Shown here: positions 250-61,865 of the stretch, in pieces
Layout of the letters: each line of letters begins with the position of its first letter
How positions within the stretch are numbered: the first letter of the stretch is position 1
NCBI GenBank assembly: GCA_017443465.1
Contig: JAFRXO010000021.1
Coordinates: 1-63,689, forward strand
Source of the DNA: Bacteroidales bacterium
Lineage (GTDB): Bacteria > Bacteroidota > Bacteroidia > Bacteroidales > UBA932
Direction of reading: 5' to 3'
DNA: 63,689 bases
Translations under genes and position numbers: made by a program
Notes under the pieces: generated by a model
Database searches by the model: none
Told to the model about the DNA's origin: nothing
The model's input: the letters and a program-made list of their open reading frames with translations, nothing else

Positions 250-1209
250 TCAGATAAATATCACCTCCCTGCCATGGAACAGGAAATTGCTCCCCGTCAC
301 ATATTCACGGCAGGTCGGCGAGAACCTGTCTTCGACTGAGATGTGCTCATGACCGGCGAGGATGCACTTGAGCAGAGGCTCTTTTTTCAGGTACTCCATG
401 AACTCCGAGGTGACCGGGTCTTCAAGCTGCCTCTTGAAGTCTCCGGTGACCTTCGGCAGGACACCGCTGGAAAGCGGGCCTTTCTCATTCCAGAACCGAT
501 GGGCGGCACGCCATATGTTGTCAGTGTAAAACGGGACGTGCATGCAGAGGACTATAGGCATCCCCTTCTTCACCTCCTCACGGAAACGCTTGACCTGCTG
601 TTTGGTAACATATCCGTAAACATCATCCAGGGTAACGAAGTTCACTCCGTTCACGACCTGGGAATTGAGGCTTATGTCGAAAGGATAGACGCTCTGGAGC
701 TTCTCCCGGGAATAGTCCTTGTATTTCTCTGTCTGTTCTTCCTTCGGTTCGCTGAGCCACATGTCCGAAGTGAACTCATGGTTGCCCAGGGAACCAGTCA
801 TTCCCTCACCGAAATATTTCCTTACAAGGTCGAAATTAGCTTCGCTCTGCCAGTCGATGAGGTCTCCCGTATGCAGCACATAGTCCACGTGCTGCTTCGC
901 CCATGCGAGTGAGTCCCTCAGGGCTTCTTCCTGCCTGCCACCGAAAGTCTGGGTGCGTCTCTTGTTCAGGGTCTGCTTCTTCTCGTTCTCTCCGGGGTAT
1001 GCCGCGGTCAGGTGGGTGTCGGAAATATGCAGGACCGAGAATGGCTTCTCGAGCCCGATTTCAACCGTAGAGTAGCACAATGCCAGCCTTTCGTACCCGC
1101 CACGCTCCGGGAACACCTCGGGTTTGTCTTCCGCCAGCAGAGGCAGCTTTGAAGTCGCGATCAAAGCACCGCCCCCAGCCAGGACCTTCATAAAATCTCT
1201 TCTTTCCAT
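250..1209 (-). CDS. Tat-exported calcineurin-like metallophosphoesterase
   Basis: A 319-residue predicted phosphoesterase of the calcineurin-like fold. The metal-binding motifs are in order: DTH (about residues 64-66), GDLID (115-119), GNHE (142-145), a histidine in MHVPF, and GHEH near the C terminus. I chose the start at MERRDFMK because it opens a twin-arginine signal (RRDFMK followed by a hydrophobic stretch); an in-frame extension of 21 residues upstream exists but would bury that signal. The enzyme is therefore probably exported folded, to hydrolyse phosphomono- or diesters in the periplasm; the substrate is unknown. It is divergent from a second Tat phosphoesterase at 1292. Confidence 0.85.
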   Translation of the reverse strand: MERRDFMKVLAGGGALIATSKLPLLAEDKPEVFPERGGYERLALCYSTVEIGLEKPFSVLHISDTHLTAAYPGENEKKQTLNKRRTQTFGGRQEEALRDSLAWAKQHVDYVLHTGDLIDWQSEANFDLVRKYFGEGMTGSLGNHEFTSDMWLSEPKEEQTEKYKDYSREKLQSVYPFDISLNSQVVNGVNFVTLDDVYGYVTKQQVKRFREEVKKGMPIVLCMHVPFYTDNIWRAAHRFWNEKGPLSSGVLPKVTGDFKRQLEDPVTSEFMEYLKKEPLLKCILAGHEHISVEDRFSPTCREYVTGSNFLFHGREVIFI

Positions 1210-1226
1210 GATATGTTTTATTTCTA

Positions 1227-1234
1227 CAAAAATA
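1227..1234 (-). promoter_or_regulatory. Candidate -7 element for the phosphoesterase at 250-1209
   Basis: TATTTTTG on the minus strand matches the Bacteroidota -7 consensus TAnnTTTG and lies 18 nt before the chosen ATG. No clear TTTG -33 box is present, so this is a partial match. Confidence 0.35.
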
Positions 1235-1291
1235 GGAAATAATAGAAAAACGCATATCTTTATAAGCACCAATTAAAAGCACTAAACACAT

Positions 1292-2389
1292 ATGGATAGG
1301 AGACAGTTCATAAAGGGTTCGGCGATTGCTATCGCTGCCGGCAGTACGATGTCAATTCCCGGTGCGGCCAGGTCGTCCAAGAAGTCAGCCGAGGACGCCG
1401 CATATCCATCCCCCCGCAAAGGTTCTGGCGTGGCAAAGGACTTCAAATACAACTCCGACGGCAAATTCAAGGTCCTTCAACTTACTGACACCCATGTAAT
1501 TTACGGCGATCCAAGAAGCGAAAGGGCATATGAAAACGTAGGGAAGATGCTAGACCTCGAAAAGCCTGACCTGGTAATACACACAGGGGACATCATTTTC
1601 GGAGAACCGGCAGAAGAAGGTGCCCGCAAGGTACTTGGACTGATCGCTGACCGGAAGATTCCATTTGCAGTAGCGCTCGGCAACCACGACAGCCAGTTCG
1701 GCCTTGACCGAAAAGGCATATATGACGTCATCAGGGCCATTCCGTACAACATCAACACTCCTGCAGACAAAGGGATCGCGAAAGCGTCAAACGACGTGAT
1801 AACCCTTTCCGGCGCAGAAGGGGTTGACAGGGTGCTTTACCTTTTCGACTCCGGAGACAGGATGGGAATAGCAGACGCAGGCTACGACAATGTCCATATC
1901 GACCAGATTGAGTGGTACGATGCGTACAGCAGGGAGTTCAAGGCCAAAAACGGAGGTAATCCGGTCAGTTCGCTGGCATTCTTCCATATACCTCCCGCCG
2001 AGTTTGACTATTGCCTCAGGCTTACTGATGACAAGGGTTGGAATTTCATCGGGCATATGGGCGAGCACATCGGATGTTCCAAACTCAATTCCGGTCTTTT
2101 CCAGGCAATGAAGATGAACGGAGACGTGCAGGCCATCGTATGCGGTCACGAGCACAATAACGATTTCGTGATGCAGTACAAAGGCATAATGCTGATCTAC
2201 GGTCGCTTCAGCGGATGCGACACCGTTTACAATGACCTCAAGCCCAATGGAGCAAGGGTCTTCGAGTTCAGCCGGGGAGAAAGAGGATTCTACACATGGG
2301 TACGGCTGAACAGCGGGGAGGTAGAGCACAGGATCTTCCTCGACCCGCCGATGGAGAACAATTTCAAGGCCCACAAAGAGCCGAAATAA
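1292..2389 (+). CDS. Tat-exported calcineurin-like metallophosphoesterase
   Basis: A 365-residue paralogue-type phosphoesterase. The N terminus MDRRQFIKGSAIAIAAG is a twin-arginine signal. The metal-binding motifs DTH (66-68), HTGDII (97-102), GNHD (130-133), FHIPP and GHEHNND match the purple acid phosphatase/Dcr2-like branch of calcineurin-like enzymes. The ATG lies inside a CATATG palindrome, as do several other starts in this window. It diverges from the phosphoesterase at 250-1209, with 82 bp between the start codons, so the two may share regulation. Its 3' end is 12 bp from the convergent GH9 gene. The substrate cannot be deduced. Confidence 0.87.
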   Translation: MDRRQFIKGSAIAIAAGSTMSIPGAARSSKKSAEDAAYPSPRKGSGVAKDFKYNSDGKFKVLQLTDTHVIYGDPRSERAYENVGKMLDLEKPDLVIHTGDIIFGEPAEEGARKVLGLIADRKIPFAVALGNHDSQFGLDRKGIYDVIRAIPYNINTPADKGIAKASNDVITLSGAEGVDRVLYLFDSGDRMGIADAGYDNVHIDQIEWYDAYSREFKAKNGGNPVSSLAFFHIPPAEFDYCLRLTDDKGWNFIGHMGEHIGCSKLNSGLFQAMKMNGDVQAIVCGHEHNNDFVMQYKGIMLIYGRFSGCDTVYNDLKPNGARVFEFSRGERGFYTWVRLNSGEVEHRIFLDPPMENNFKAHKEPK

Positions 2390-2401
2390 ATCCGCTCTTT
2401 T

Positions 2402-4921
2402 CTATTCCGACAGCAGCTTGCGGGAGGCAAGGACGAGGAACATATAGTGGCTGGAGCCACCCCCGAGCACGTATTCGACCTGCTGCCAGAGGTAGGGCCA
2501 CACCAGGAGTTCCGGGAAATCAGGACGGATGAGAGCCGTTCCTGAAACCACCCCGCCGGGGATGTAAGACCAGTCGGCCCTGTTCAGCCCGTATCCGACA
2601 GTGGCTGATTCAGAGCCCACTCCGGAGGCGAAGGACTGCTGGTTCGAGCCGGGATGGCATCCCAGCACGAAGTTCATGGCATTGACAAGGGGCTCGGCCG
2701 AGAATATGTCCGGGAAGGCATCTACGAGGAAATAATGGTTGTAACCGAATCTCTGTATCGTCCATCCGGCTCCCCATATGTCCGGGCGGTAAGGCACTCC
2801 GTACGGCGTCTCGGCGGTCTGGCGTGAAAGCTGGTCGCGGTACTCCAGAAGGGCCTCGCGGTAAGCCGCGAACTGCTTGCGGTACTTCTTGTCACCCTCG
2901 AGTGACTTTGCGAATGCGGCTGTGGACGAAGGATCCCTCCGGGCTCCGCTGACCACCTGGTCCCACCTGGACATCACGAAATCGAAATACTTCCGGTCCC
3001 CGGTAGTCCTGTAGAGCTCGATGGCCAGGTTGATCATCCCTCCGGCGTTGCGTTCATCGGCGGCAGTCCCCTCGAAAATCGTCCTGGCTATATCCAGGCA
3101 ATGCACTGAAAGAGTGTCATTATGGCCTTTCAGCGCCCTGGAAACGGCAGCGAGGGAAGTAGCCGAAGAGAGGTCGCGTCCGTGTCCATATGTAAAGACC
3201 CAACGGTCATCCGCAGTTCCCGGGATGTTGTCCGTCATCGCGGAGGCATCTCCGAGCATTACATATTGGCGGAGATTCCTGCATATGATTCCGCGGTAGA
3301 GCCGACCGAGGGCCAGATAGCCGTTGACTGCGGTCAGGGCCCCGTTTTCGATCTGCTGCAGGAAGTCATTCTTCCCGTCCGGCTGATGTATCTCGGTCAC
3401 ATGTTTGTCGAAATCGATGCTCGTAACGTCGATATCCGGATGGAAGGCCTCCCATGCGCGTGTAAGTATGTAGCTTTCACCTAGTTGCGACTCGATGCGA
3501 AGATCGAAATCCCCGGCATCATGCCAGCCGCCGTTGCTCAGCAGATGACTGTTCTTTCCCACCGGAAGCGCCGAGCCGTCCCCTTCAAGCTGCACATATC
3601 CGTCGATATAATTTCCGACTGCCGCCATCTTGGCATCGTCCATATGGCAGACGTCATGCCAGACGCGGTACTTCTCCGCAACGCGCATATGGCACATCTG
3701 CACCGGAAGGAAGTACTCGATGACAGGCTGCCAGACGCCGCGGTCATAGACATCCCCTGCAATCTGGAAAACCGGAGACTCGCTGCCGCCGTAGCGCAGC
3801 ACATATGCCCCAGGTTCCTTCACGTCCGTAAAATCCGCCTTTGCATATGTGTACCTCAGGAAGTTACCGTCCCATTTGCGGACGGCTACGGTTTTGACGA
3901 TCTCTTCTCCATTGTCGGTGAACTTGACAAGCTTGGCAGACGGAAGCACGCTGTCCCTGCGGTCAAGCTCGATGACGGCAACTTTCTGCTGCGAAGGCAT
4001 ATAACCCACCTGGGAGACCTGCACCACCGGCTTGTACCTCCAGTCCTCAACCACATTAGGCTCGATGAACCACTTCACCGCACCCTTTGTAGCCCCAGAA
4101 GGAATCTCGGAACGAAGCACGAACCAGCCGGTGTTATGGTTCATCCTGCCGTCGTAAAGTTTCAGCGGCGCGGTCTCGGAAGTAATTGTAAACCGCATAT
4201 ATGGATCATCCGGACGGGATGTGAAGCGATGTCCGACTGCATATGGCTCGGCGACTATCCTGTCGGCTGTGAACGGGCTGTAATCGGTCAGGGCGTTGAA
4301 GCCGTCGAAGTCGGAATACGGCCGGCCTTTGATGTAGAAATCACCGAGGTTGTCGGTGTACGAGGTGCCTTCTTTCACAGGTCCGTTGGCCTGCTGGGGG
4401 TATATGCCCGACTTTCCGTCCATCAGGTAGGGCTTTCCGAAGACCCATCCAGGGAAGATCTCAAGGTTGAATCCGGCCTTTCCTATGAACTTCTCCGGAA
4501 TGGGCTGGTCGAGATCTACGACTACCTCAAGTCCCTTTCCTTTCGGCGTGAGGGTCACAGAATAGGTGAGCTGGACATCCGGATAGAACATGGGGTTGAA
4601 ACCGGTGGCGTGCCTGCTGGAGTCGGGATAGGCCAGGCGGGTCACAAGGCTCCCACCCTCCTGACTGCTTGAAAGCTTCTTAGGCACCGGCTGCCACTGC
4701 CCGGGGGTCTCGTCGAAACGGATGTCGCCGTTGGTGAAGACGCGTTTCCCGTGCATGATCACGCTGACTCCTCCCTGATGGCCCTCGGGATAGTAGTCGT
4801 TGAACAGCATTGCATCGACTCCGCCGCAGGTGAAATAACCTGAGTCGTTGAGTTTGAACTGCTGACCGTACACGACGGTGGCAAGCAGCGCCAGGAGAGC
4901 GCTCAAGAATATGCGTTTCAT
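2402..4921 (-). CDS. Secreted glycoside hydrolase family 9 enzyme
   Basis: An 839-residue protein with a Sec signal peptide (MKRIFLSALLALLATVVYGQ). About 310 residues of unassigned N-terminal beta-rich sequence follow, then an Ig-like CelD N-terminal domain (from about VSQVGYMPSQQKVAV) and a GH9 (alpha/alpha)6 catalytic domain. The nucleophile-water activating motif GGWHDAGD lies at about 464-471. The C-terminal catalytic-acid region is the WQQVEYVLGGGSSHYMF segment. GH9 enzymes are mostly beta-1,4-glucanases, but Bacteroidota members also act on xyloglucan or mixed-linkage glucan, so the substrate is open. The size is normal for an Ig-GH9 with an extra N-terminal module. No SusC/SusD pair is nearby. 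Confidence 0.85.
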   Translation of the reverse strand: MKRIFLSALLALLATVVYGQQFKLNDSGYFTCGGVDAMLFNDYYPEGHQGGVSVIMHGKRVFTNGDIRFDETPGQWQPVPKKLSSSQEGGSLVTRLAYPDSSRHATGFNPMFYPDVQLTYSVTLTPKGKGLEVVVDLDQPIPEKFIGKAGFNLEIFPGWVFGKPYLMDGKSGIYPQQANGPVKEGTSYTDNLGDFYIKGRPYSDFDGFNALTDYSPFTADRIVAEPYAVGHRFTSRPDDPYMRFTITSETAPLKLYDGRMNHNTGWFVLRSEIPSGATKGAVKWFIEPNVVEDWRYKPVVQVSQVGYMPSQQKVAVIELDRRDSVLPSAKLVKFTDNGEEIVKTVAVRKWDGNFLRYTYAKADFTDVKEPGAYVLRYGGSESPVFQIAGDVYDRGVWQPVIEYFLPVQMCHMRVAEKYRVWHDVCHMDDAKMAAVGNYIDGYVQLEGDGSALPVGKNSHLLSNGGWHDAGDFDLRIESQLGESYILTRAWEAFHPDIDVTSIDFDKHVTEIHQPDGKNDFLQQIENGALTAVNGYLALGRLYRGIICRNLRQYVMLGDASAMTDNIPGTADDRWVFTYGHGRDLSSATSLAAVSRALKGHNDTLSVHCLDIARTIFEGTAADERNAGGMINLAIELYRTTGDRKYFDFVMSRWDQVVSGARRDPSSTAAFAKSLEGDKKYRKQFAAYREALLEYRDQLSRQTAETPYGVPYRPDIWGAGWTIQRFGYNHYFLVDAFPDIFSAEPLVNAMNFVLGCHPGSNQQSFASGVGSESATVGYGLNRADWSYIPGGVVSGTALIRPDFPELLVWPYLWQQVEYVLGGGSSHYMFLVLASRKLLSE

Positions 4922-4956
4922 CTTCGGAAATGATTAATTTTCCCAAAGATAAGCAT

Positions 4957-5769
4957 TTATATGACAATCTCGAAGGGGAGGGTTTTCTGCCAGAGGTCTA
5001 TCTTGACGGTAATGGATGTCGAGGCGTAGTCTATCTGCACCGGAAGATCCTCCAGGTTCTCAGCACCCCAGTCATAGCCGGACTCTGCAATGAACTCCCC
5101 CAGGGCGAAAGACCTGAGCACTCCGGAGGAGTTGGTAATGTCCAGGCGCAGCGAATTATCCACCTGCCTGGGCACGCTCACAGGGGCCTTTCCTTCCTTC
5201 GAAGGCCAGACCGAAGCCGCGAACCGTCCGAAGGAAGGGCTGCCTGAGGTATCGTATCCGTCCACTCCCCCGCTCACTTCCACCAGGAACGGCCATCCGA
5301 GAGTCTTGTTGCCGCTTTCGGATATCTTGATGTCCAGGAGGCAGTAATTCTTGTTAAGCCTCAGGGTGTCGCGGAACCTCTCCCCGTCCAGGTCAATCCT
5401 ATGGGCGCTCATCCAGACTTTGGGACACTGTGCCCCGGCAGTGATCTTCAGCCCGTATCCGGGAACGAAAAAGCCTTCCCCCGCATTTACGGCATATATC
5501 ATTGTCTCCCCTCTGGGCACCTCCAGGTAATAGTCAAACTCCGCATCCTCCTTCCAGAGTGTGTCAGTATAGAAAAAACCGCTATTCCCGGAAACGGCCA
5601 CTGTTACCGGGAAACGGCCCTGCCCGCGGAGATGGCCCAGGTCCAGTACCAGAAGACAAGGGCAGTCATCCCGGTCCTCCAGGACGCTGCAGCCTCCGCA
5701 TGCAAGACCAAGAAGGACCAGGAATCCCGCCAGAATAAAAAGAAGGTTTCCTCTCGTGTCAGAAGACAT
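4957..5769 (-). CDS. FimB/Mfa2-family fimbrial lipoprotein
   Basis: A 270-residue protein with a hydrophobic N terminus and a lipobox-like Cys (GLACGGCS), followed by the EDRDDCPC segment that typically opens the FimB/Mfa2 (minor fimbrial anchor) family. The C terminus (KIDLWQKTLPFEIVI) fits the family's last beta strand. In Porphyromonas such proteins anchor or terminate fimbriae at the outer membrane. It overlaps the upstream DUF3575 gene by 11 nt (its ATG, itself in a CATATG, lies before that gene's stop), so the two are translationally coupled. No major pilin gene is in the window. Confidence 0.75.
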   Translation of the reverse strand: MSSDTRGNLLFILAGFLVLLGLACGGCSVLEDRDDCPCLLVLDLGHLRGQGRFPVTVAVSGNSGFFYTDTLWKEDAEFDYYLEVPRGETMIYAVNAGEGFFVPGYGLKITAGAQCPKVWMSAHRIDLDGERFRDTLRLNKNYCLLDIKISESGNKTLGWPFLVEVSGGVDGYDTSGSPSFGRFAASVWPSKEGKAPVSVPRQVDNSLRLDITNSSGVLRSFALGEFIAESGYDWGAENLEDLPVQIDYASTSITVKIDLWQKTLPFEIVI

Positions 5770-6310
5770 ATGTCAAGGCGACTATCAGCTCATCCGGAAG
5801 GAAGAACACCTTCTCACCCTTGTCGATGGTAAGGCCGCAGACAGGGCAGCTGTACTTCGTAAACTTGTCATATCCTCCCCAGACCCCGGCACCGAAGGTC
5901 GCGTTCAAGTGCTTGTTGATCATGTAAGTATAACCTCCGGAGAGGCTTCCGCCATAGCGCATTCCCTCCCGGGTCTCCTTGGAAAGTATTCCGCCGGAAC
6001 TGTACTCCTCCAGCTGGGCCTTACCAGCGATCCACCATCCGGAATAGACATGCCATGGCCACCAGCGCATACCGGCGGACAGCCTTCTGCGCTTGTCCTG
6101 TTTCACGCCGTCGCCTTCCCCGAAGGTAAACGGATTGTACTTCCCTCCGGCCAGGACGCTCCAGTGCTGGGCCAATGCATATGACGCCTCGATGTTGATG
6201 GTCCCGAAATCCGCATAATCCGCCAGGTTAGTCGCAATCGAAACCTCCTGGGCTTGCATTCCGAACGTGGCCAGGAGGACCGCCGACACACAGAGAATCA
6301 ACTTCTTCAT
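5759..6310 (-). CDS. DUF3575 outer-membrane-type protein
   Basis: A 183-residue protein with a signal peptide (MKKLILCVSAVLLATFGMQAQ). Alternating hydrophobic strands and a C terminus ending in an aromatic residue (IVALTYVF) fit an outer-membrane beta barrel. The sequence matches DUF3575, a family common in Bacteroidota fimbrial loci. It is the middle gene of a three-gene operon: 17 nt after the HExxH lipoprotein gene and overlapping the Mfa2-like gene. Its role is unproven; assembly or anchoring of a surface fibre is the contextual guess. A CPVC motif near residue 153 is unusual for a barrel loop. Confidence 0.75.
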   Translation of the reverse strand: MKKLILCVSAVLLATFGMQAQEVSIATNLADYADFGTINIEASYALAQHWSVLAGGKYNPFTFGEGDGVKQDKRRRLSAGMRWWPWHVYSGWWIAGKAQLEEYSSGGILSKETREGMRYGGSLSGGYTYMINKHLNATFGAGVWGGYDKFTKYSCPVCGLTIDKGEKVFFLPDELIVALTYVF

Positions 6311-6327
6311 TTCCTTATCAACGTTGT

Positions 6328-7917
6328 TTAATATCTTTCAAATACCTGGTTTATTACAGCCTTGCGGCTTGGATAGAGCTCCAGCAGCTTGGCCCTGAGC
6401 TTGTTCTTGTCGGTCACCTCCGGAGTGAGAGCCTTGAATATCTCCCCGCATTTCATTCCCCTCTCGTCCAGATAGCGGAAGATCTGGGGATGGAACCAGA
6501 AACTGTTCCCGAAATTCGGCATAGTCCCGCCGTAACGGTCGTTGTAGGTCTTGTTCTCCATGTAATAACCCCACATTTCACCAACCTCACAATAGCCGGC
6601 CCCGCTGGTCGTTCCATCCCCGTATGTTGTAAATCCATTTTCCACGAAGGACCTGAGGATGTAGGATATGTACTTGTCCCAGAAGTCCTTCCCCACCTGG
6701 GAGAAATGGCTCGCATGCGCCAGTTCATGGCAGGCTGCGGAATAGACCTGCGAATAATCATCACGGTCTTTCAGGCCGAGGGTGATATCCGGAAGGATGC
6801 TCTTGATAAGTCCGGCATAGTCACCCAGGAAGCCGCGCACGAGGGCATTGTCAACGACGGCTCCGTGCTTGAGCATGCAAGCGCTGCTGCTGCCCATCTT
6901 CTGGAACAGCCATATGCGCAGACCTTTCGGAGGAGCGGGTATGCCCAGGTCACCTCCCTCTTCGCAACGGGAGTACCAGTCATATGCAGTGTTGTTCACC
7001 ACGCAGCGGGTAAAGAGTTTCCGGTCAGACTTACGTGTTATGGTCACGTCCTTCCCTTCGGCCGGACCGCCTCCCAGAGTAGAGAAAGAGGCGTGGGTCA
7101 GCACCATGTTGAAGCCTATGGAGAAGCCCTTTTCGTTCCTGAACAGAAGGCGGTAACGCAGTCTTGCCGAATATTTGACAGGGATCTCATAGTAGCCGTC
7201 ACGGTCGGTGTAGGTCGAAGAGAATTTCACGAAAGCATTGCATGAGACCTTCACTCCCGCGACTCCGAAAGGCTCCCCGCCGTTCGCATTTCCGTCCACA
7301 ATGGTTATCCTTCCTGATGGCTTGTGCCTTTCAGCCTTAGTCTGGGGTTCCAGAAAAGAGGTATTACCGGTCAGCCGGAAGGCTTCCCGTTCCACCTCCT
7401 GCCAGTCAACTCCGTCATCTGAACGCGTAACAGGGTCATTCTCTGTAATATAACACCTGTCCAGCGTTTCATAAACGAAGCCTGAGGGGAATTTGAAATC
7501 AGCCGGCACTACAGCGTACTGCCAGGTTATCTTCTCTTCAGGAAGGTCAGGATCGTGGTAGTAGTCCCCCTCCTTCAAGATCTCATAATCCATAGGATGG
7601 TCCAGAAGTTCCAGCCCCATGTCTTCCAGCACTTGGAGCTGGTCTTCATTCTTGGGCAGGAAACGTACATAGAGGTCCGTAGGTTCGAGGTCTACCCTGC
7701 CGGCCTTTGTCGGATAGAGGCTTTTCAAAGCCGCCTCCATGTTCTGCAGGGAATAAGGGTCATCGAGCTGCTTCCCTAGGACGATCTCCTCGTGGGCCAG
7801 CTCCTCAAGCCTGCCGTTCTCACCGGAGATAGAGGACAGAGAGTCCCCTTTCTCGCACGAGATCGCGATGACAGGCACAATCGCCAGAATTGGCAGAAAA
7901 TCCAGAAAGTTCTTCAT
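6328..7917 (-). CDS. Putative zinc-protease lipoprotein (HELAH motif)
   Basis: A 529-residue predicted lipoprotein (signal anchor, lipid-modified Cys about residue 21 in AISC). The centre carries a carboxypeptidase-regulatory-like beta sandwich (about ITIVDG through GYYEIPVKYS). The HELAH motif at 397-401 is a canonical HExxH zinc site, with downstream acidic residues in GYCEVGEMWGYY as possible third ligands. I do not recognise a named family. It is the first gene of an operon with DUF3575 and an Mfa2-like gene, so processing of a surface fibre subunit is a reasonable hypothesis. The upstream 7918-7996 stretch holds no gene. Confidence 0.65.
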   Translation of the reverse strand: MKNFLDFLPILAIVPVIAISCEKGDSLSSISGENGRLEELAHEEIVLGKQLDDPYSLQNMEAALKSLYPTKAGRVDLEPTDLYVRFLPKNEDQLQVLEDMGLELLDHPMDYEILKEGDYYHDPDLPEEKITWQYAVVPADFKFPSGFVYETLDRCYITENDPVTRSDDGVDWQEVEREAFRLTGNTSFLEPQTKAERHKPSGRITIVDGNANGGEPFGVAGVKVSCNAFVKFSSTYTDRDGYYEIPVKYSARLRYRLLFRNEKGFSIGFNMVLTHASFSTLGGGPAEGKDVTITRKSDRKLFTRCVVNNTAYDWYSRCEEGGDLGIPAPPKGLRIWLFQKMGSSSACMLKHGAVVDNALVRGFLGDYAGLIKSILPDITLGLKDRDDYSQVYSAACHELAHASHFSQVGKDFWDKYISYILRSFVENGFTTYGDGTTSGAGYCEVGEMWGYYMENKTYNDRYGGTMPNFGNSFWFHPQIFRYLDERGMKCGEIFKALTPEVTDKNKLRAKLLELYPSRKAVINQVFERY

Positions 7918-7996
7918 TTCGCGTACATTTTAAAGTCAGTCCGCGACAAAAGTAGAAGAGGCTTTCAGTTTAGGAAAAAAAGAAACGTTTATTTAC

Positions 7997-8032
7997 AAAA
8001 ACGCCATCTGAAGCGTGTCAGATGGCGTTTTT
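7997..8032. terminator. Strong bidirectional intrinsic terminator
   Basis: A 15-bp perfect stem (AAAAACGCCATCTGA, loop AGCGTG, then the complement) has a T run on both strands. On the minus strand it lies downstream of deoC; 8033-8125 between them holds no recognisable gene. It separates the deoC operon from the HELAH operon. Confidence 0.85.
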
Positions 8033-8125
8033 GATGGTCTGATGCCTCATGCAAATGTGTCATTCCAACCCGAAATATAGGCCCTGGATGCCACCGGAGG
8101 CAGATTATCCGTTTACAGATCCGGA

Positions 8126-9019: not shown

Positions 9020-9047
9020 ATGTTTTCTGTATTAGTTGTCTTAAAAC

Positions 9048-10384: not shown

Positions 10385-10387
10385 CAG

Positions 10388-12829: not shown

Positions 12830-12841
12830 ATCTTGATGTGT

Positions 12842-44152: not shown

Positions 44153-44153
44153 T

Positions 44154-48811: not shown

Positions 48812-48845
48812 GAAAAGATGCAGGAATTATACTAACTTAGCAACT

Positions 48846-50252: not shown

Positions 50253-50423
50253 TCTGAGGGCAGGTCGCACCGACAAACCTTCCGCTTCGCTCCATCCTTC
50301 CCACGGGATGTCGAGACGTCATACTAACAAGTTTGTCCTCCGCTCTCCATCCCGTGGGCCCCTCCCTCTCAACGAAGCCGAGGGCGGCTACGGGTTTGTC
50401 GTTGCGACCTGCCCTCGGACTAC
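50249..50423. repeat. GC-rich inverted-repeat element E4
   Basis: Arms of 31 nt (50249-50279 and 50393-50423) pair with two mismatches. The inner stem CCCACGGGATG (50300-50310) pairs perfectly with 50348-50358. The core has TCCGCTTCGCTCC and GGGCCCCTCCC, matching the complement of element E2. It fills the gap between two convergent genes: the left arm overlaps the MATE stop codon and the right arm ends 4 nt before the serine hydrolase stop. Confidence 0.75.
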
Positions 50424-50426
50424 CAA

Positions 50427-51482: not shown

Positions 51483-51503
51483 ATTATTCTTTCTTAGAAG
51501 TGA

Positions 51504-52514: not shown

Positions 52515-52534
52515 TGGCTCAGTGTTTTAGTAAA

Positions 52535-52542
52535 CAAATATA
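52535..52542 (-). promoter_or_regulatory. -7 element for the prenyl synthase gene
   Basis: TATATTTG on the minus strand matches TAnnTTTG, 20 nt before the ATG at 52514. Confidence 0.45.
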
Positions 52543-52553
52543 ACTCTTTTTAT

Positions 52554-52561
52554 TAACTTTG
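52554..52561 (+). promoter_or_regulatory. -7 element for rsgA
   Basis: TAACTTTG matches TAnnTTTG, 17 nt before the ATG at 52579. The two divergent -7 boxes lie 11 bp apart. Confidence 0.5.
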
Positions 52562-52578
52562 CCACCTAATCAGCTTTT

Positions 52579-53529: not shown

Positions 53530-53534
53530 GACAT

Positions 53535-54809: not shown

Positions 54810-54813
54810 TCCC

Positions 54814-55665
54814 CTACTGCTCGTCAACGGAGTTGTCGCCGTCTTTGTAGTAATACTCTATGTCGCGGCCGAAAAGGTCCCGGCCTCCGAAGATGAATCC
54901 ACCTCCGTCATTGCGCCTCCTGGAATCCGCATAGAAATCCCTATGGTCGGCATAATAGCCTGAACCTGAGGCATTGTCCGCTGCCTCGGCTATGATGCGG
55001 TTGCGTGTGTGGCGGAAAAGCCTCCAGCAGAACCAGAGAAGGCAGAAGGTCAGGATAAGGTTGAGCGATTCGCTCAGGCCGCTGACGAAACAGATAGTGT
55101 CATATGCCCCGTGAAGCAAGACGGGATAAAGCCACATCTTCCATCTGGCGGAGGATTTCTCCTTCTCATCCCAGCTGAAATGCTGGCGGGAGTAGTAATA
55201 ACCCATCACTATGGCAAAGGCGAAATGGCCGGGGACGGCCAGGAATGCCCTGCTGACACTTACCGCGAACCAGCCTGCACCTGCGCTCAGCACGTAGAGA
55301 AGGTTTTCGAAGGTAGCGAAGCCCAGTCCTACCGAAGCGGCATAGACCAGACCGTCATAACGCTCGTCAAAGTCCCTGCAGTTACGGAGCAGGAGCCAGA
55401 GCATTATCAGCTTGGCCGACTCCTCGGGGATTGCCGCACCGAAAAACGCAGTCTTGATGGATTCGAGGATGGTCGTTGGTTCCTGGGTGAATGCTCCGAG
55501 GGTCATCAGCGGCCCGGAGATCATCGTCGAAACGAAGGTGGAGATTCCGCCGAAGAGGAAACCCTTGAATACCAGATTGGTAGGCTCAGGGGTGATGTCC
55601 CTGGAGTAAACGTACCAGAACAGGATCAGAGCCGGCAGGACGGCTGCGAGGAAAATCGTAAACAT
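54814..55665 (-). CDS. PrsW-family intramembrane metalloprotease
   Basis: A 283-residue membrane protein with about seven to eight hydrophobic segments. The PrsW motifs are EESAKLIMLWLL, HFAFAIVMGYYYS and LLHGAYDT (glutamates and histidines as zinc ligands). Family members cut anti-sigma factors or work with other type II CAAX-like proteases. The start is in CATATG. The tail after the last helix is Asp/Arg/Tyr-rich (NASGSGYYADHRDFYADSRR). Confidence 0.83.
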   Translation of the reverse strand: MFTIFLAAVLPALILFWYVYSRDITPEPTNLVFKGFLFGGISTFVSTMISGPLMTLGAFTQEPTTILESIKTAFFGAAIPEESAKLIMLWLLLRNCRDFDERYDGLVYAASVGLGFATFENLLYVLSAGAGWFAVSVSRAFLAVPGHFAFAIVMGYYYSRQHFSWDEKEKSSARWKMWLYPVLLHGAYDTICFVSGLSESLNLILTFCLLWFCWRLFRHTRNRIIAEAADNASGSGYYADHRDFYADSRRRNDGGGFIFGGRDLFGRDIEYYYKDGDNSVDEQ

Positions 55666-55696
55666 ATGCTAGAATAAGAAACGAGAGGAAATCATT

Positions 55697-57352
55697 TCAA
55701 AACAGCCTCTGTTTGGTGAGGGCTTCCCTCAGGGCATCGTCGTAGCGAAGGCGGACCTGGATTCCGGCAGTCTGCCAGAAATAGCGTACCGCAATCTCTT
55801 CTTCTATGAATGGGATTATTTCATCCTTTTTCAGTAGCAGGAACTGTTCCTTGTCCATCTCCAGAGCCTTGCGGAGAGCCTCCAGCTCAGATGACATATT
55901 CTCTGCAAGTCCGTCTTTCTCAAGCTGTTCCTTCATCTGGTCGAACAGTGCCCTGGCGCTGGAACGGTAATCGAAGTCCCGGCCCTTGGCGTACTGGACG
56001 AAGTCGCTGTACTCTTCATCGCCGAAACGGAACCACGTCGAAGGCGAGTTGTCATATGCCTTGAGACTGGATTCGACAGGGGTGATGCTCCGGTGGGCGC
56101 TGACATATTTCATGGCGTACTGCTCGATGATGCCGTTCACAACGAGAGAGTAGGTCAGGCGGCTGTAAGAATGTGCCTTGAGGGTGTCGTCAGGAGTGAT
56201 TCCTCCTCCGTCGCGGACCTTCCTTCCTCCGACAGTGGTGAATTCATGGGTAAGCGAATCCGGGATGTGCCCCACGCTTCCGTCCTCGTTGCGGTGGGCA
56301 TAGTCAATGGCCTGGACGCACCGTCCGCTCGGGGTGTAATATTTTGCAATGGTAACCTTGAGCTGTCCGTTGTAGGGAAGGGGCTGGATGCCCTGGACAA
56401 GGCCTTTCCCGAAGGTCCTCTGTCCCATAATGGTCGCCCTGTCGAGGTCCTGGAGGGCTCCGGAAACGATCTCGGAAGCCGAAGCTGTACCGGAATTGAC
56501 CAGGACTACTATAGGCATCCTGGTGTCAACGGGATCCATTACAGTCTTGTAGACCATCTCTCGGGAGTTGTTATTCCCCTTCTGGCTTACTACCGTGGAT
56601 CCCTTCGGGACGAACAGGGAGACTATCTTTACAGCCTCGGAAAGCAGTCCTCCGCCATTGCCCCTGAGGTCATAATAAAGAACCTTCATTCCCTTGGACT
56701 TCAGGTCAAGGAATGCACTCCGAACATCTTCGGCGACGTTTTCAGTGAACCCTGTCTGGAGGATGTAGCCGGTTGTGTCATTCAGCATGCCGTAGTACTC
56801 CACATCCGGAAGATGGATCCTCTCACGGAGCACTACCACATCCACAGTGTCCCCCGTCCAGACCTTCTTGACCTTGAATGTCACCTTGGTTCCGGGCTTG
56901 CCCTTCATCCTGTCACTCGACTCCGACGCCGTGAGGCCATGGGTCGAGACCCCGTCTATGGCGAGGATCTCATCGCCGCATCTGAGTCCGTATTTCTCCG
57001 CCGGGGAGCCCTTGTACGGCTCATTGATAAGCACGTTTCCGTTCTTGTCAGGCTTGTAGATGATCGCGCCGATTCCTCCATATGACTTGTTAAGCATCAT
57101 CTGGAGGTCTTCATTCTCTTCCTCAGGGATATATACCGTGTAGGGGTCCAGATTCTCCAGCATAGCATCTATCCCCGCGCGCTCGATCCTGTCGATCGGA
57201 AGGGAGTCCACATAATTCATGTTAAGCTGCTGGAGCAGGGCCGTCTGGATCTCAATCCACTTCCCCATCCTGAAGCCCTTGCTCTGGGCTCCCGAAGGGA
57301 TGATCCAAAGGAGCATAAGGGCCGCTATAACCGTATATTTTGCCGTTTTCAT
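55697..57352 (-). CDS. S41 C-terminal processing peptidase
   Basis: A 551-residue exported protease with a signal peptide (MKTAKYTVIAALMLLWIIPSGAQS). A helical N domain, a PDZ domain (KYGLRCGDEILAIDGVSTHG), and the S41 domain (LRGNGGGLLSEAVKIVSLF; nucleophile Ser in GTASASEIVSGALQD; Lys in GKGLVQ) follow. It trims C termini of periplasmic proteins. It is divergent from rdgB with 43 bp between. Confidence 0.92.
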   Translation of the reverse strand: MKTAKYTVIAALMLLWIIPSGAQSKGFRMGKWIEIQTALLQQLNMNYVDSLPIDRIERAGIDAMLENLDPYTVYIPEEENEDLQMMLNKSYGGIGAIIYKPDKNGNVLINEPYKGSPAEKYGLRCGDEILAIDGVSTHGLTASESSDRMKGKPGTKVTFKVKKVWTGDTVDVVVLRERIHLPDVEYYGMLNDTTGYILQTGFTENVAEDVRSAFLDLKSKGMKVLYYDLRGNGGGLLSEAVKIVSLFVPKGSTVVSQKGNNNSREMVYKTVMDPVDTRMPIVVLVNSGTASASEIVSGALQDLDRATIMGQRTFGKGLVQGIQPLPYNGQLKVTIAKYYTPSGRCVQAIDYAHRNEDGSVGHIPDSLTHEFTTVGGRKVRDGGGITPDDTLKAHSYSRLTYSLVVNGIIEQYAMKYVSAHRSITPVESSLKAYDNSPSTWFRFGDEEYSDFVQYAKGRDFDYRSSARALFDQMKEQLEKDGLAENMSSELEALRKALEMDKEQFLLLKKDEIIPFIEEEIAVRYFWQTAGIQVRLRYDDALREALTKQRLF

Positions 57353-57370
57353 GACTTTTCGTATATTTCA

Positions 57371-57378
57371 CAAAGTTA
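57371..57378 (-). promoter_or_regulatory. -7 element for the S41 peptidase gene
   Basis: TAACTTTG on the minus strand matches TAnnTTTG, 18 nt before the ATG at 57352. Confidence 0.45.
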
Positions 57379-57395
57379 AATAAAATTGGACATTA

Positions 57396-58043
57396 ATGAA
57401 AATTACGTTCGCTACGGCAAACCTCGGGAAACTCCGCGAAGCCGGTGAGATCCTGGGAGAGGGATGGGAGCTTCTAAGCAGTGCAGAGGCCGGCGTAACC
57501 GAAGATATCCCGGAAAACGGACAGACCTTGAAGGAAAATTCCCTGGCTAAGGCCGAATATCTCTACAAGGCTACCGGGCTGGACTGCTTTGCAGATGACA
57601 CCGGACTGGAAGTCGATATGCTGGATGGCGCGCCCGGAGTGCATACAGCGAGATATGCCGGAGGGGAAGGTCATGATTTCCAGGCAAATATGGACAAACT
57701 GCTCCAGGATATGGCTGCCAAGGAGCGCCTGGCCGCAGAGAAAGGTAAGGCCGCTCCTTCACGCACAGCCCGTTTCCACAGCATTGTGACCCTGATCCTG
57801 GGAGGAAAGACTTATTTCTTTGAGGGGACACTCGAGGGGTTGATAGCGGACGCCAAGGCAGGATGCGGAGGTTTCGGGTATGACCCTGTCTTCATCCCAT
57901 TCGCCATTCCGGACCCGGAGGGCATCCTGGTACCCAACACCCGTAATCTCACCCTTGCGGAAATCCCTGAAGAGGACAAGAATGCCATTTCACACAGAGG
58001 GAGCGCACTGCGCGCCATGGCAGCCTTCCTCCAGGACAAATAA
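57396..58043 (+). CDS. rdgB: Non-canonical purine NTP pyrophosphatase
   Basis: A 215-residue HAM1/RdgB enzyme that hydrolyses ITP, XTP and dITP to keep them out of DNA. FATANLGKLREAGEIL is the substrate loop, ADDTGLEVDMLDGAPGVHTARYAG the active site and GFGYDPVFIP the base-binding motif. The middle contains a Lys/Ala-rich insertion. recO follows after 1 nt. Confidence 0.94.
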   Translation: MKITFATANLGKLREAGEILGEGWELLSSAEAGVTEDIPENGQTLKENSLAKAEYLYKATGLDCFADDTGLEVDMLDGAPGVHTARYAGGEGHDFQANMDKLLQDMAAKERLAAEKGKAAPSRTARFHSIVTLILGGKTYFFEGTLEGLIADAKAGCGGFGYDPVFIPFAIPDPEGILVPNTRNLTLAEIPEEDKNAISHRGSALRAMAAFLQDK

Positions 58044-58044
58044 A

Positions 58045-58698
58045 ATGACTGTTAACTCGGAACTCATTGTCCTGAATGTCACCAGATTCAGGGAAAATTC
58101 GATAGTCCTTCACGGCCTGACCAAGGAGTGGGGACGGGTCGGGCTCATGGTCAGCACAAAGGGGCACAACAGCTATTTCCAACCCATGAACATCCTGGAG
58201 GCCGATGTGACGGTGAACCCCAGGACGACCCTGTGGCATGCAAGGAATTTCAGCATATGCTCTCCCCTGGTCGGGATACGCAGCGACCTGAAGAAGAACA
58301 GCATCACAATGTTCATGAGCGAAGTCCTGTTCAAGACCGTGAAAGAGACCGGAAGGGACAATGGCATATATGACTTGTGCCGGCAGTCGGTTTTCACCCT
58401 GGATGCGCTCGAGACGGATTTCTCGAACTTCCACCTGTACTTCCTCCTGGAACTGGCGGCGGCACTCGGCTTCTCCCCGGATTTCGACAGCCTGGCCCCA
58501 TTCGCGGGGGACAACCTGATGAAACTGGAAGCCATGATGCAATGCAATCTGGCGGAATCCCTCCTCATCCCGATGAACGGGACGGAGAGATCCGAAATAG
58601 CCGAGAGCATTATCCGCTACATAGCCTTCCACTCAGAATCACCGGTGAACATCAAGTCCCTGGCCGTCCTGAGGGAGCTGTCTGCATCTGCATATTAA
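58045..58698 (+). CDS. recO: DNA repair protein RecO
   Basis: A 217-residue RecO, start at MTVNSELIVLNVTRFRENS (1 nt after the rdgB stop). The N-terminal OB fold (about 1-80, IVLHGLTKEWGRVGLMVSTKG) and helical C domain are visible, but no zinc-cysteine cluster. RecO loads RecA onto SSB-coated DNA in the RecFOR pathway. The protein is at the short end for the family. It ends 13 nt from a convergent hypothetical gene. Confidence 0.88.
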   Translation: MTVNSELIVLNVTRFRENSIVLHGLTKEWGRVGLMVSTKGHNSYFQPMNILEADVTVNPRTTLWHARNFSICSPLVGIRSDLKKNSITMFMSEVLFKTVKETGRDNGIYDLCRQSVFTLDALETDFSNFHLYFLLELAAALGFSPDFDSLAPFAGDNLMKLEAMMQCNLAESLLIPMNGTERSEIAESIIRYIAFHSESPVNIKSLAVLRELSASAY

Positions 58699-58711
58699 CG
58701 CTCCCGAACCG

Positions 58712-59428
58712 CTAAAGGTCGTCGATGGGATTCCGGCCGGATGTGCTGGTGGAACCGATCAGAGAAGCTGTGTACTTGAGGATTACGTGCCAGGTGGCCT
58801 GCTCTTTCACGTCAGCGTCCAGGGAAATCCTCCCGTTAGGAAGGTCATAGACCGCCAGGTTGCTTCCCGGGGTTGTCTTCGGCTCGATACCGTATTTCTG
58901 GGTAAGGGAAGCCTGAAGATTGTCATATGATTTCTCAAGGGCGTTCCAGTCAGTAATTACCGGGAAATCCACCCTGACCTCCTGGACGGAATTGTACCCT
59001 GTGGGAGTCACTTTGCAGCCGCTGTAACCTGCGAAGTCTCCGACATATGAGCCGCTCCCGGAATTCCTGAATCCGGCCTTGACCAGCTCGTCTCCGAAAG
59101 CCGAAAGCGTCCCGGTAATCGGGATCCCCTTGAATGTGAGAGGAGTAGTGGGAGTCGCAGAAGGGACGGTAGTGGAAGGGGCCGTGGACGTAGTCTCCTT
59201 TTTATCCTTTCCGATTCCAAGTTCATTCTCAATCTCGGAAACAATATCCTTGAGGTCCTTGTCAGAGCCATTGTCCTTCGGAGAGAGCCAGCCCCCCGAT
59301 TCAGAGGATGATGACGAACCACCCATTCCTCCGGGGAGTTTGATGACACTCCCCATCTGGCTCGTACAAAGCCTTACAAGCAGGAAAACGATAACAAGGA
59401 CAAACAGTAACCTTAAAATCTTTTTCAT
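58712..59428 (-). CDS. Hypothetical membrane-anchored protein
   Basis: A 238-residue protein that I do not recognise. One N-terminal hydrophobic helix (about 5-22) is followed by a Gly/Ser-rich and then Thr/Pro-rich linker (to about 95). A compact C-terminal domain with FKGIPITGTLSAFGDELVKAGF follows, reading like a small alpha/beta fold that acts on a fixed ligand or polymer. It is 19 nt downstream of nagX on the same strand and may be the last gene of that operon. Confidence 0.6.
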   Translation of the reverse strand: MKKILRLLFVLVIVFLLVRLCTSQMGSVIKLPGGMGGSSSSSESGGWLSPKDNGSDKDLKDIVSEIENELGIGKDKKETTSTAPSTTVPSATPTTPLTFKGIPITGTLSAFGDELVKAGFRNSGSGSYVGDFAGYSGCKVTPTGYNSVQEVRVDFPVITDWNALEKSYDNLQASLTQKYGIEPKTTPGSNLAVYDLPNGRISLDADVKEQATWHVILKYTASLIGSTSTSGRNPIDDL

Positions 59429-59447
59429 CGCAGTATGTTATTAATTA

Positions 59448-60593
59448 TCAGATCCTTAGTTTGATTCCAATCTTGGATATCAGCCAGGTGATGAATATCA
59501 CTATGGCGGTAAGCACCAATGCATTCAACAGCCCGAGGCCACCGTGGTACAGAGGTTTTATATACAGGCCAAGCATCCCTTGGACCGGAAGCATTATATA
59601 TGGAATCAGGTAGCATGTAAGCGTCGCGGTTCCCGCAGGCTTGATCGGACCGAGCCAGTCAGTACGCCTGGCTACATCGCATATGTAGTACAAGAGGGCG
59701 AAGAACGGGAAGTACATCGCAGTGCATACGAAGAACCACGTCGGAGTCGCCTTGATCTTGGATATGATCCAGAATTTGTGGCTCACGAAGAAGGCGGCAA
59801 GCATCACCAGGCCTGCGATCAGGCAGAACAGGATCAGGTCACCCGGTTTTTTGCTCTTCTGCATTACCACTGTCAGCAGGACTCCCGAAAAGCACAAGGC
59901 ATTGCTGGTCCATCCGAACAGGGGGAAATCGCCCAGGAAACCGCCCGGGATAGCCCAGTTAAGCACGCAGGCGGTCACTACAAAGAACCACATTGCGGCC
60001 ACTATCTCGAGTTTCCTAAAGGAAAGCAGGTAGAGTAAGGCACAGAAGAGATAAGCCCAGCCGATGAGTCCAAGGATGCCCCACCAATGGAATGCGAAAG
60101 GCTCCTTTCCGTTGAAAACGAAATAGAGGAAAACCAGCAGCCCGACGCCCAGGGCCCTCAGGATATAGAACGGCCAGCGCTTGGGATAATCATTCCATAT
60201 CAGGATGAAAGCCACCGCCATGAGGATCTCGTACCAGCGGTATGAGAGCATAGCTCCGTCCGAACTGTAATACGACAGGTTGACCATGAAGACTCCCATC
60301 ACCAGGAGGGCCAGGCTCCGCATTAAAATATGTCCGACGATGGACATGATGCTGTCGCCCCTGTCAATCCTCTTCCCTATCGCCAGGGGGATGGAAAGGC
60401 CGACGGCGAAAAGGAAGGCCGGGAAGACTATGTCAGCCAGACCGAGCATATCCTCCTTCGCAGCGGCATGATGCATCCAATGGGGTATGCCGGACATCCC
60501 GGCATAAAAATTCACGAAGAGCATCATTACCATTGTAATGGCCCTGAATGCGTCAACCGAGGCAACGCGGCTTTTGTTTATAGCTGTTTCCAT
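59448..60593 (-). CDS. DUF5009/NagX-like membrane protein
   Basis: A 381-residue protein with about ten hydrophobic segments. SVDAFRAITMVMMLFVNFYAG and WMHHAAAKEDMLGLADIVFPAFLFAVGLSIPLAIG define COG4299 (HGSNAT-like, DUF5009). In other bacteria the NagX members sit in N-acetylglucosamine loci, as here, behind a FucP-like MFS gene (12 nt) and a NagB-like gene. It may transacetylate sugars across the membrane. The start codon is in CATATATG. Confidence 0.8.
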   Translation of the reverse strand: METAINKSRVASVDAFRAITMVMMLFVNFYAGMSGIPHWMHHAAAKEDMLGLADIVFPAFLFAVGLSIPLAIGKRIDRGDSIMSIVGHILMRSLALLVMGVFMVNLSYYSSDGAMLSYRWYEILMAVAFILIWNDYPKRWPFYILRALGVGLLVFLYFVFNGKEPFAFHWWGILGLIGWAYLFCALLYLLSFRKLEIVAAMWFFVVTACVLNWAIPGGFLGDFPLFGWTSNALCFSGVLLTVVMQKSKKPGDLILFCLIAGLVMLAAFFVSHKFWIISKIKATPTWFFVCTAMYFPFFALLYYICDVARRTDWLGPIKPAGTATLTCYLIPYIMLPVQGMLGLYIKPLYHGGLGLLNALVLTAIVIFITWLISKIGIKLRI

Positions 60594-60605
60594 ATATGTG
60601 TTTAT

Positions 60606-61865
60606 TTAAAGCCCGTCGGACGAAGTCCTGACCTTGGATCCGACCTGGGCATATAAAAGCATAAGTATTTCTCCCGCAAGTACAAGATACCATGCAATGC
60701 GCCATGAGCCGAGCGTGTCTGCCAGCAGCCCCTGCAGAAGGGGAAGCACGGCACCACCCAGGACTCCTATCATGAAGACTCCCGAAGCGGCAGAGGTGTA
60801 TTTCCCGAGGCGGGCAGTTGACAAGGTGAAGATCGCGCCCCACATTATCGAGTGGAAGAGTCCCACGGCTGTGAGCACCCACGGATTGTCAAGCAGGATG
60901 GCCGCCACAACCAGCACGGCTGCGGAACAGGTAGTGAAGGTGAGCTGCGTCCTGGGGCTGATCCTGCTAAGCAGGCTGCCTGTAGTACGGCCTATCAGCA
61001 TTCCTCCCCAGTAAAGGGTCGCGAGGAGCGCCGGACTGGCAATTCCCTTGTCTATCGCGTACATATTGATATTCGCACCTACACAGGTCTCGACTCCTAC
61101 ATAGAAGAAAATCGCCACGACTCCGAGAGTCAGATGGCTGAAGGACCATATGCTCTTCTCCAGTTTCTTTCCGGTGTCGTTCCTCGTCCCCTCTATGTCA
61201 GGAAGGGCCAGGCGCGACAGGATGACCAGGACTGTCGCCATAATGGCTGCAAGGCATATGAACGGAATTGTTAGCTGGCTGATCTTAACGTCAGACATCG
61301 CCACTCCGCTGAACACCACTCCGGTCACGAAGTACGGGGCTATGGTAGTTCCTACCGAATTGGCGGTTCCTCCTATTGCCAGACGCTGTACAGACTGGGT
61401 CCCGGGAATCGAGCAGGCGCAAAGATATGGATTGATAACTACCTGGAGGACAGTCGCTGAACCGCCTGTAACGAATGATCCGACAAGGAAGATCAGGAAG
61501 CCCAGCGGGATGACGAATTTCCCGGCATTCATCACCGAATCGGGAAAATGCACTGTGTACCAGGAAGAGAGGAAGAAGAGGGTAAGTCCTGCGGCCATCA
61601 TTCCGACTCCGCGCAGGAGAGTCACCTTGTAACCTTTGGAATTCACCCAGGAAGACCCCACCGGACCGAATATCGGATAAGCGAGGAACCAGCTGAATGT
61701 AATCAGGGTAGCAAAGGTGTTCCTGAAATTGCCGGCATTCTTGAGGAATGCTTCTTTCAAGGGGGCCTGGAACTGGGAGTTGACGGTCGTCAGGAATCCT
61801 ATTACGAAGAACAGGAACACCATCGACACGAACGGGCCGACGTAACTTGTTTTCTTTACTGACAT
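60606..61865 (-). CDS. Sugar MFS permease, NagP/FucP-like
   Basis: A 419-residue 12-helix permease (GPFVSMVFLFFVIGFLTTVNSQFQAPL start; GGSATVLQVVINPYLCACSIPG; GAIFTLSTARLGKYTSAASG). It belongs with the sugar symporter at 31237. Its position between nagX and a nagB-like gene supports GlcNAc (NagP) import. Its ATG overlaps the nagB-like 3' end by 10 nt, which couples translation. Confidence 0.8.
   Translation of the reverse strand: MSVKKTSYVGPFVSMVFLFFVIGFLTTVNSQFQAPLKEAFLKNAGNFRNTFATLITFSWFLAYPIFGPVGSSWVNSKGYKVTLLRGVGMMAAGLTLFFLSSWYTVHFPDSVMNAGKFVIPLGFLIFLVGSFVTGGSATVLQVVINPYLCACSIPGTQSVQRLAIGGTANSVGTTIAPYFVTGVVFSGVAMSDVKISQLTIPFICLAAIMATVLVILSRLALPDIEGTRNDTGKKLEKSIWSFSHLTLGVVAIFFYVGVETCVGANINMYAIDKGIASPALLATLYWGGMLIGRTTGSLLSRISPRTQLTFTTCSAAVLVVAAILLDNPWVLTAVGLFHSIMWGAIFTLSTARLGKYTSAASGVFMIGVLGGAVLPLLQGLLADTLGSWRIAWYLVLAGEILMLLYAQVGSKVRTSSDGL

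Follow-up and report, generated by a model that had tools for sequence, protein, structure and literature searches.

CATATG sites in the window

The window, i.e., the whole stretch of 63,689 nucleotides that was analysed (contig JAFRXO010000021.1 of a Bacteroidales bacterium), carries 102 exact copies of the palindrome CATATG, the first at position 512 and the last at 61255-61260. The genome to which it belongs (G000; 2,645,555 bases) is 96.4% complete with an assembly contamination of 2.9%. A sequence-only reading of the window had counted about 102 sites by eye, and the exact count agrees with it. Base composition predicts 13.2 sites (order 0), and Markov models of order 1, 2 and 3 predict 11.9, 27.5 and 50.2. 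The order-4 expectation is as high as 87.2, since CATATG itself raises the counts of its five-letter parts, CATAT and ATATG. Among the control words, GATATC was found 12 times, slightly more than the ten or so seen in the quick pass, and the reversed word GTATAC was found zero times. The 8-bp palindrome CATATATG had been reported about 11 times at an expectation below one; it occurs exactly 11 times, with 0.7 expected (order 0).

Genes were called using a simple script of our own, which scores long frames by codon use, in place of a standard gene finder; predicted starts are approximate. According to these calls, 92 of the window's sites are inside predicted genes, seven are at start codons and three are outside predicted genes (Table 1). 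Relative to the reading frame, the 92 genic sites comprise 12 CAT.ATG, 54 nCA.TAT.Gnn and 26 nnC.ATA.TGn.

The whole genome contains 4230 CATATG in 2.65 Mb (1.60 per kb) and 79 GTATAC. Since GTATAC is itself depleted in genes of G000 (7 observed, 108 expected in 690 kb), the ratio 4230:79 overstates the CATATG effect. Genes of three relatives are depleted of GTATAC as well (G211, 0 against 23.7; G254, 1 against 16.6; G228, 0 against 10.5), and this avoidance is therefore wider than the drive towards CATATG.

Table 1. Coordinates of features in the window and of stretches of G000 in which opportunities for CATATG (defined in the next section) are unfilled.
Feature	Position	Strand	Remark
CATATG, 102 sites	512..61260		scattered across the window
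CATATG at predicted start codon	1289..1294		ATG starts gene 1292-2389 (+)
CATATG at predicted start codon	5767..5772		minus-strand ATG starts gene 4957-5769 (-)
CATATG at predicted start codon	9017..9022		gene 8126-9019 (-)
CATATG at predicted start codon	25365..25370		gene 25368-26330 (+)
CATATG at predicted start codon	32525..32530		gene 32528-33487 (+)
CATATG at predicted start codon	53532..53537		gene 53535-54809 (+)
CATATG at predicted start codon	55663..55668		gene 54814-55665 (-)
CATATG outside predicted genes	9219..9224		inside unpredicted frame 9048-9878 (-); may be coding
CATATG outside predicted genes	43797..43802		
CATATG outside predicted genes	48792..48797		between divergent genes 47417-48778 (-) and 48846-50252 (+)
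pheT-like gene (phenylalanyl-tRNA synthetase beta)	10388..12829	-	Pfam; 5 CATATG at 10887, 11005, 11236, 11363, 12472
Glycoside hydrolase family 2-like gene	39788..43261	+	Pfam; 11 CATATG, the maximum among the window's predicted genes
CATATATG, 11 copies	1717..60598		1717, 4196, 11395, 11447, 19798, 20047, 22265, 26399, 51650, 58365, 60591
Runs of unfilled opportunities, G000	C12:47916-51218; C29:15025-18928; L117:10760-12613; L123:5190-9831; first part of L102 (C66)		
Unfilled opportunities, G000	C8, C16, C18, C22		small contigs

Filling of synonymous opportunities in genes

Observed counts in genes were compared with shuffled sequences in which protein and codon use were kept. In 313 kb of G000, 458 coding CATATG were found, with 82.0 (sd 6.9) in 50 shuffles. 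The excess extends to all three phases (65, 274 and 119 observed; 32.2, 25.9 and 24.0 shuffled), as the sequence-only reading had maintained for the window, and is not limited to one of them. In 938 kb there are 1357 coding sites, whereas 20 synonymous-codon shuffles gave 252.8 (sd 9.7). An effect of codon use or translation was ruled out by these shuffles, the three phases and the noncoding sites described below.

Three types of opportunity for CATATG were distinguished: His-Met; Tyr with an NCN codon (Ala, Ser, Pro or Thr) before it and a codon beginning with G after it; and Ile-Cys or Ile-Trp preceded by a codon ending in C. Throughout the 938 kb, 1353 of 1636 synonymous opportunities (82.7%, an unselected figure) read CATATG; in the window, 93 of 108 do. 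Before G, the pair NCA.TAT was chosen in 78% of 1047 cases, and before other bases in 12.8% of 1527; the codon pair is therefore picked by whether the full CATATG results. By our own arithmetic, filling exceeds the baseline in the three phases with odds ratios of about 21 to 24.

Two of the dipeptides that permit the word are raised in the proteins of G000: His-Met (198, 124 expected; 123 in the reverse order) and Ile-Cys (316, 215 expected; 222 in the reverse order). The same two are raised in the sister species G423 (85 against 57 and 145 against 91), a genome which is 79% complete and 87.6% identical to G000 over aligned DNA. In pooled relatives they are not raised (38 against 46 and 97 against 94).

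The driven word and its longer form

The word had been proposed to be CA(TA)2-3TG. Its shorter form stands, and the extension to CATATATG is weakly supported. In G000, 75 CATATATG were counted, compared to 18.2 in synonymous shuffles (4.1-fold), and 7 of 10 aligned places have it in both species. Of the Ile-Tyr pairs in a context that permits CATATATG, 51 of 113 are filled in G000 and 10 of 29 in relatives, which is no clear excess for G000. Where His-Ile-Cys/Trp leaves a free choice, CAC.ATA, which gives CATATG, was taken in 13 of 16 cases and CAT.ATA, which gives CATATATG, in 1 of 16. The words ATATATAT and TATATATA are under expectation (0.74 and 0.67). The driven word is CATATG, and CATATATG is at most a weak side effect.

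Action on noncoding DNA, start codons and flanks

The gaps between genes (29,382 bases) contain 36 CATATG, with 8.8, 5.7 and 8.4 expected for order 0, 1 and 2, and 4 GATATC, with 8.8 expected. The five-of-six odds ratio of CATATG in the gaps was 5.26, the top value of 64 palindromes (next 2.76, median 0.94). At first, intergenic DNA had seemed barely enriched (31 sites against 11 in 40 kb), an impression that was revised once start-codon sites and true gaps had been separated. The next raised palindromes in the gaps of G000 are GGGCCC (12 copies, odds ratio 2.76) and TTGCAA (34 copies, 2.74), which are possibly parts of promoters or terminators.

Directly upstream of ATG starts, CAT was present in 92 of 512 cases in G000, with 37.6 expected under column independence. 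The corresponding figures are 35 of 211 in G423 and 7 of 206 in five relatives.

On the coding strand, words with one end base off are weakly raised and nearly equal in both orientations (AATATG 1.55 and CATATT 1.54; GATATG 1.19 and CATATC 1.19); the remaining half-site pair gave 1.56 for TATATG and 1.36 for CATATA. A possible strand asymmetry of the half-site ATATG, which was seen in codon contexts, failed in the hexamer comparison. For the flanking bases, a core set with a fill of 0.867 was used; it had been defined in hindsight, with low-fill runs and contigs below 8 kb left out (105 of the 1636 opportunities), and its fill is biased upward. In this set the fill is lowered by a 5' C (0.766) and a 3' G (0.790) and is high with a 5' G (0.909) and a 3' C (0.904); hence, the flank preference is dyad-symmetric. 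A word acting in RNA is disfavoured by these flanks and by the orientation-equal half-sites but is still conceivable, as transcripts often include gene gaps.

Spacing and unfilled islands

The fill hardly depends on the distance to the nearest other site up to 500 bp (0.854 at 6-30 bp, 0.854 at 30-60, 0.878 at 60-120, 0.863 at 120-250 and 0.866 at 250-500), and is 0.813 at 500-1000 bp, 0.519 at 1-2 kb and 0.20 beyond. With at least six other sites within 1 kb it is 0.87, compared to 0.84 and 0.88 with two and three. Spacing is near random (CV, coefficient of variation, 1.11), and 8.1% of the spacings are below 50 bp, with 8.7% expected. Sites thus do not replace each other, which argues against a function that needs sites only at a given density. 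The repair ratchet put forward for HIP1, a highly iterated palindrome (HIP) of cyanobacteria, is of this kind. A function in spacing or density (repair distance, even spread) is not supported either: the fill drop at isolated sites goes the opposite way, together with empty runs.

Empty opportunities are partly found in runs and on small contigs. Several of the runs are long genes resembling those of outer-membrane proteins or lipoproteins, some probably of SusC/SusD type judging by their protein starts, and L102:4958-6832 has 62% GC. Possibly, the unfilled runs are recent arrivals which the drive has yet to reach; assembly contamination is an alternative.

Conservation in the sister species

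In 137,010 bases of DNA aligned between G000 and G423, both species have CATATG at 189 places, and a further 61 places have it in a single species (17 in G423, 44 in G000). Its conservation of 0.861 is the first among 3276 hexamers with at least 25 occurrences, for which the mean is 0.50. With peptide and flanking base both conserved, an opportunity is filled in the two species alike in 169 cases, in G000 alone in 15, in G423 alone in 3 and in neither of them in 30. For comparison, the identity is 65% at fourfold sites and 138 of 218 for control codon pairs. Noncoding and start-overlapping sites of G000 in aligned DNA are retained in G423 at 11 of 13 and 10 of 13 places, respectively. Between the species, 35 of the differences consist of a single mismatch; they are spread over nine word classes, transversions included.

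Distribution among relatives

A genus sample of 300 genomes, taken from a larger group, and an order sample of 294 genomes from 177 genera with a completeness of at least 80% were screened, both including G000. In the genus sample G000 ranks first, and the next genome by count is G211 (2028 CATATG in 2.8 Mb). In the order sample none but G000 is above about 0.43 CATATG per kb (G040, 1237 in 2.9 Mb), and the highest count besides G000 is 2314 in 5.6 Mb (G576).

A search with PheT in 400 genus genomes (378 matching) gave, among the matches listed, one close relative, G423, with 94% protein identity; beyond it, none of the matches listed exceeds 73%. The 405,509 bases of G423 that were counted have 610 CATATG (1.50 per kb) and 7 GTATAC. 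In pheT, 5 of 5 opportunities are filled in G000, 5 of 5 in G423 and 9 of 32 in ten relatives with 71-73% PheT identity, whose pheT loci have 0.20 CATATG per kb. Compared to synonymous shuffles, CATATG is raised 5.7-fold in G000, 3.9-fold in G115, 2.3-fold in G211, 2.0-fold in G228 and 1.5-fold in G254, and in G097 it is outside the top six palindromes. A mild preference for CATATG is present elsewhere in the genus, and near-saturation is seen only in the pair of G000 and G423. Because the drive is missing in the sampled relatives, it arose on the branch leading to this pair.

Two further words stood out in these genomes. TCCGGA exceeds its count in synonymous shuffles 1.6 to 2.6-fold in G000, G211, G228, G254 and G097 (five of six genomes) and is among the top six palindromes of each. 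In the stretches L076-L078 of G115, CATG is almost absent from genes (0.06 of expectation) and GATC is low (0.40), a sign of avoidance.

Searches for methyltransferases and Vsr

For METHYLTRANSFERASE, no match over the cut-off was obtained in G000 for PF01555, PF02086, PF00145, PF02384 or PF07669, in a search of 14 genus genomes that covered G000; 4, 7, 6, 6 and 7 of the 14 match these families. Two sub-threshold PF07669 matches in G000 are frames with an NPPY motif and appear to resemble release-factor and tRNA methylases. The motif [DNS]PP[YFWL] was present in 13 of 665 predicted proteins of G000 (938 kb), none of which, by our reading, resembles a DNA methyltransferase, and in 2 of 310 predicted proteins of G423. 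The MT-A70 search matched no genome, control genomes included, and is hence uninformative for G000 and G423. For Vsr (PF03852) neither G000 nor G423 has a match, while 5 of 12 tested genomes do. Given the completeness of the two assemblies, a gene for a methyltransferase or Vsr may be missing from them. In two other genomes, D12-type and N6_N4-type methyltransferases are close together in a manner reminiscent of restriction-modification clusters (G097:C6:119334-122320 and G314:C89:2698-5186).

Interpretation

A DNA-level, dyad-symmetric and nearly all-or-none force acts per site towards CATATG and is maintained in two rumen sister species. It overrides codon preference, alters the base context of start codons and raises two of the three dipeptides which permit the word. 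That neither a protein nor a simple codon effect is at work, as had been argued from the window, is well supported by the three phases, noncoding DNA, start codons, dyad-symmetric flanks and two-species conservation.

The most likely agent is a dimeric protein that reads CATATG, with each site favoured on its own. The agent would bind duplex CATATG as a symmetric dimer, with a strictness similar to that of a type II restriction-modification protein or of a very selective nucleoid protein, and would need no known DNA methyltransferase. We tentatively favour additive per-site selection for occupancy of CATATG, a reading which falls somewhat short of an even chance. Each occupied CATATG would give a tiny additive benefit, and selection would fill synonymous and tolerant sites one at a time. 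If selection is the cause, 2Ns would be about 3 per site, because of the odds ratios of filling given above (own arithmetic).

Several observations weigh against this reading. No CATATG-reading protein was identified, and selection and biased repair predict alike in the two-species data. In conserved opportunities, 30 of 217 are empty in both species, which is above chance; therefore, some sites appear closed to the force. Ile-Trp is not raised in proteins (251, 252 expected), and the reversed Cys-Ile is raised too in G423 (113 against 91). Words with an inner mismatch are unequal by orientation (CCTATG 0.46 and CATAGG 1.22; CACATG 0.60 and CATGTG 1.10), which we put down to synonymous competition, the losers being direct synonymous alternatives. 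In noncoding DNA the excess is 4 to 6-fold, far less than the synonymous odds ratios, and the unselected five-of-six odds ratios are 3.8, 8.3 and 4.6 in gaps compared to 4.4, 12.8 and 10.3 in genes; functional constraint may account for the lower strength in noncoding DNA.

The nearest rival to selection is biased repair or gene conversion, in which a CATATG-reading dimeric enzyme corrects near-match mismatches towards the word, in the manner of very short patch repair favouring its own word and with no benefit to the cell. It would suit the local filling, independent of other sites, the nearly all-or-none specificity, and the retention of the word in conserved opportunities, by our own arithmetic 0.95 (169 shared, 18 single), compared to the control codon pairs. 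However, the nine word classes among the differences between the species, with their transversions, would require an enzyme that accepts nearly every mismatch, the Vsr search gave no match in either genome, and noncoding DNA, which should be free to convert, has fewer sites than predicted. Taken together, this explanation is possible and rather doubtful. Slightly more doubtful still is its stricter form, a methylation-independent drive in which a dimeric type II-like enzyme rewrites near-matches to CATATG and so reshapes codons, starts and some amino acids across the genome in a single young clade; no description of such a drive on a six-letter word was found in the open-licence literature.

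Alternatively, a CATATG methyltransferase may be present and have been missed, either in the unassembled part of the genome or in a family other than those searched, so that methylation makes the sites useful or biases repair, which has been proposed for cyanobacteria. Cyanobacterial HIP words are reported in PMC4390886 to accompany a matching methyltransferase, and at 96.4% completeness a gene can be missing from G000. Some of the 14 genomes do match each of the five families that are without a match in G000, and the 13 motif-bearing proteins of G000 offer no evident candidate. We regard this explanation as unlikely; if true, it would make the system a HIP in the known sense. A six-base palindrome is a typical recognition word.

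A word for DNA uptake or recombination (an uptake sequence or a Chi-like word), which spreads because DNA with CATATG is taken up or recombined more, is very improbable. Short, very abundant and clade-specific words are known from such systems (PMC4390886). Against it, CATATG is short with its six bases, its fill is undiminished near other sites and its spacing near random, and the nearest relatives are without enrichment.

An artefact of codon use, protein make-up, AT-alternation mutation bias or assembly can practically be dismissed as the main cause: a mild rise of ATAT words does exist in several relatives (in G115 ATATAT is raised 3.2-fold, and CATATG is raised in G115 and G211 as given above), but an artefact is refuted by the synonymous shuffles, by codon pairs which respond only when the next base is G, by ATATATAT and TATATATA below expectation and by the enrichment in a second genome.

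Comparison with known systems

Type II restriction-modification systems reading the same palindrome exist, i.e., NdeI and FauNDI, the latter from a Flavobacterium. Restriction normally accompanies avoidance of the word and a protecting methyltransferase; here, CATATG is enriched and no such modification enzyme was found in G000 among the five families.

Very short patch repair (Dcm/Vsr) shows that a sequence-specific repair bias can enrich its own word without selection on that word. It affects word abundance only modestly, and only through T:G mismatches in methylated words. The CATATG system differs in its many substitution types and in having no Vsr-family match in G000 or G423.

DNA uptake sequences are longer, not palindromic and tend to be more evenly spread, and Chi words are not palindromic either; CATATG has six bases, is palindromic and is spaced near randomly. 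The uptake sequences of Pasteurellaceae and Neisseriaceae resemble it in reaching thousands of copies of a short word in one clade (PMC1939737).

The closest likeness is to HIP1 (GCGATCGC) and the alternate HIPs of cyanobacteria (Elhai 2015, PMC4390886), which are also palindromes far above expectation genome-wide, with a density in the order of one per kb and sharp variation between relatives. In the open-licence literature this cyanobacterial work was the sole close match, and no such word in Bacteroidota was found there, in line with what had been supposed from the window; neither CATATG nor Bacteroid- occurs in the text of PMC4390886. The cyanobacterial words are GC-rich and have a matching methyltransferase, whereas CATATG has an AT core with two G/C of six, a sequence other than HIP1, and no methyltransferase was found for it in the five families searched in G000, an absence which is unproven at 96.4% completeness. 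The ratchet proposed for HIP1 should halt at about one site per 1000 bases (PMC4390886), whereas CATATG is filled independently of other sites up to 500 bp away and has a density of 1.6 per kb. We call the system HIP-like and not a HIP, because no matching methyltransferase was found and the word is neither GC-rich nor limited in density; the likeness to HIP1 drawn from the window thus holds for how the word works and not for membership.

Selection has reportedly been studied on HIP1 as well, in 2018. The origin of HIPs has so far been tied to cyanobacterial DNA methylation. The present case is near-saturated, belongs to a different phylum and has no methyltransferase found. In it, codon preference and start-codon context yield to a DNA word, and even dipeptide use is shifted, which bears on the reading of codon bias and on tests of selection in such genomes. 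Since the sister species shares it and relatives in the genus are unaffected, its cause is mappable: the responsible gene should be common to G000 and G423 and missing from the relatives at 73% PheT identity.

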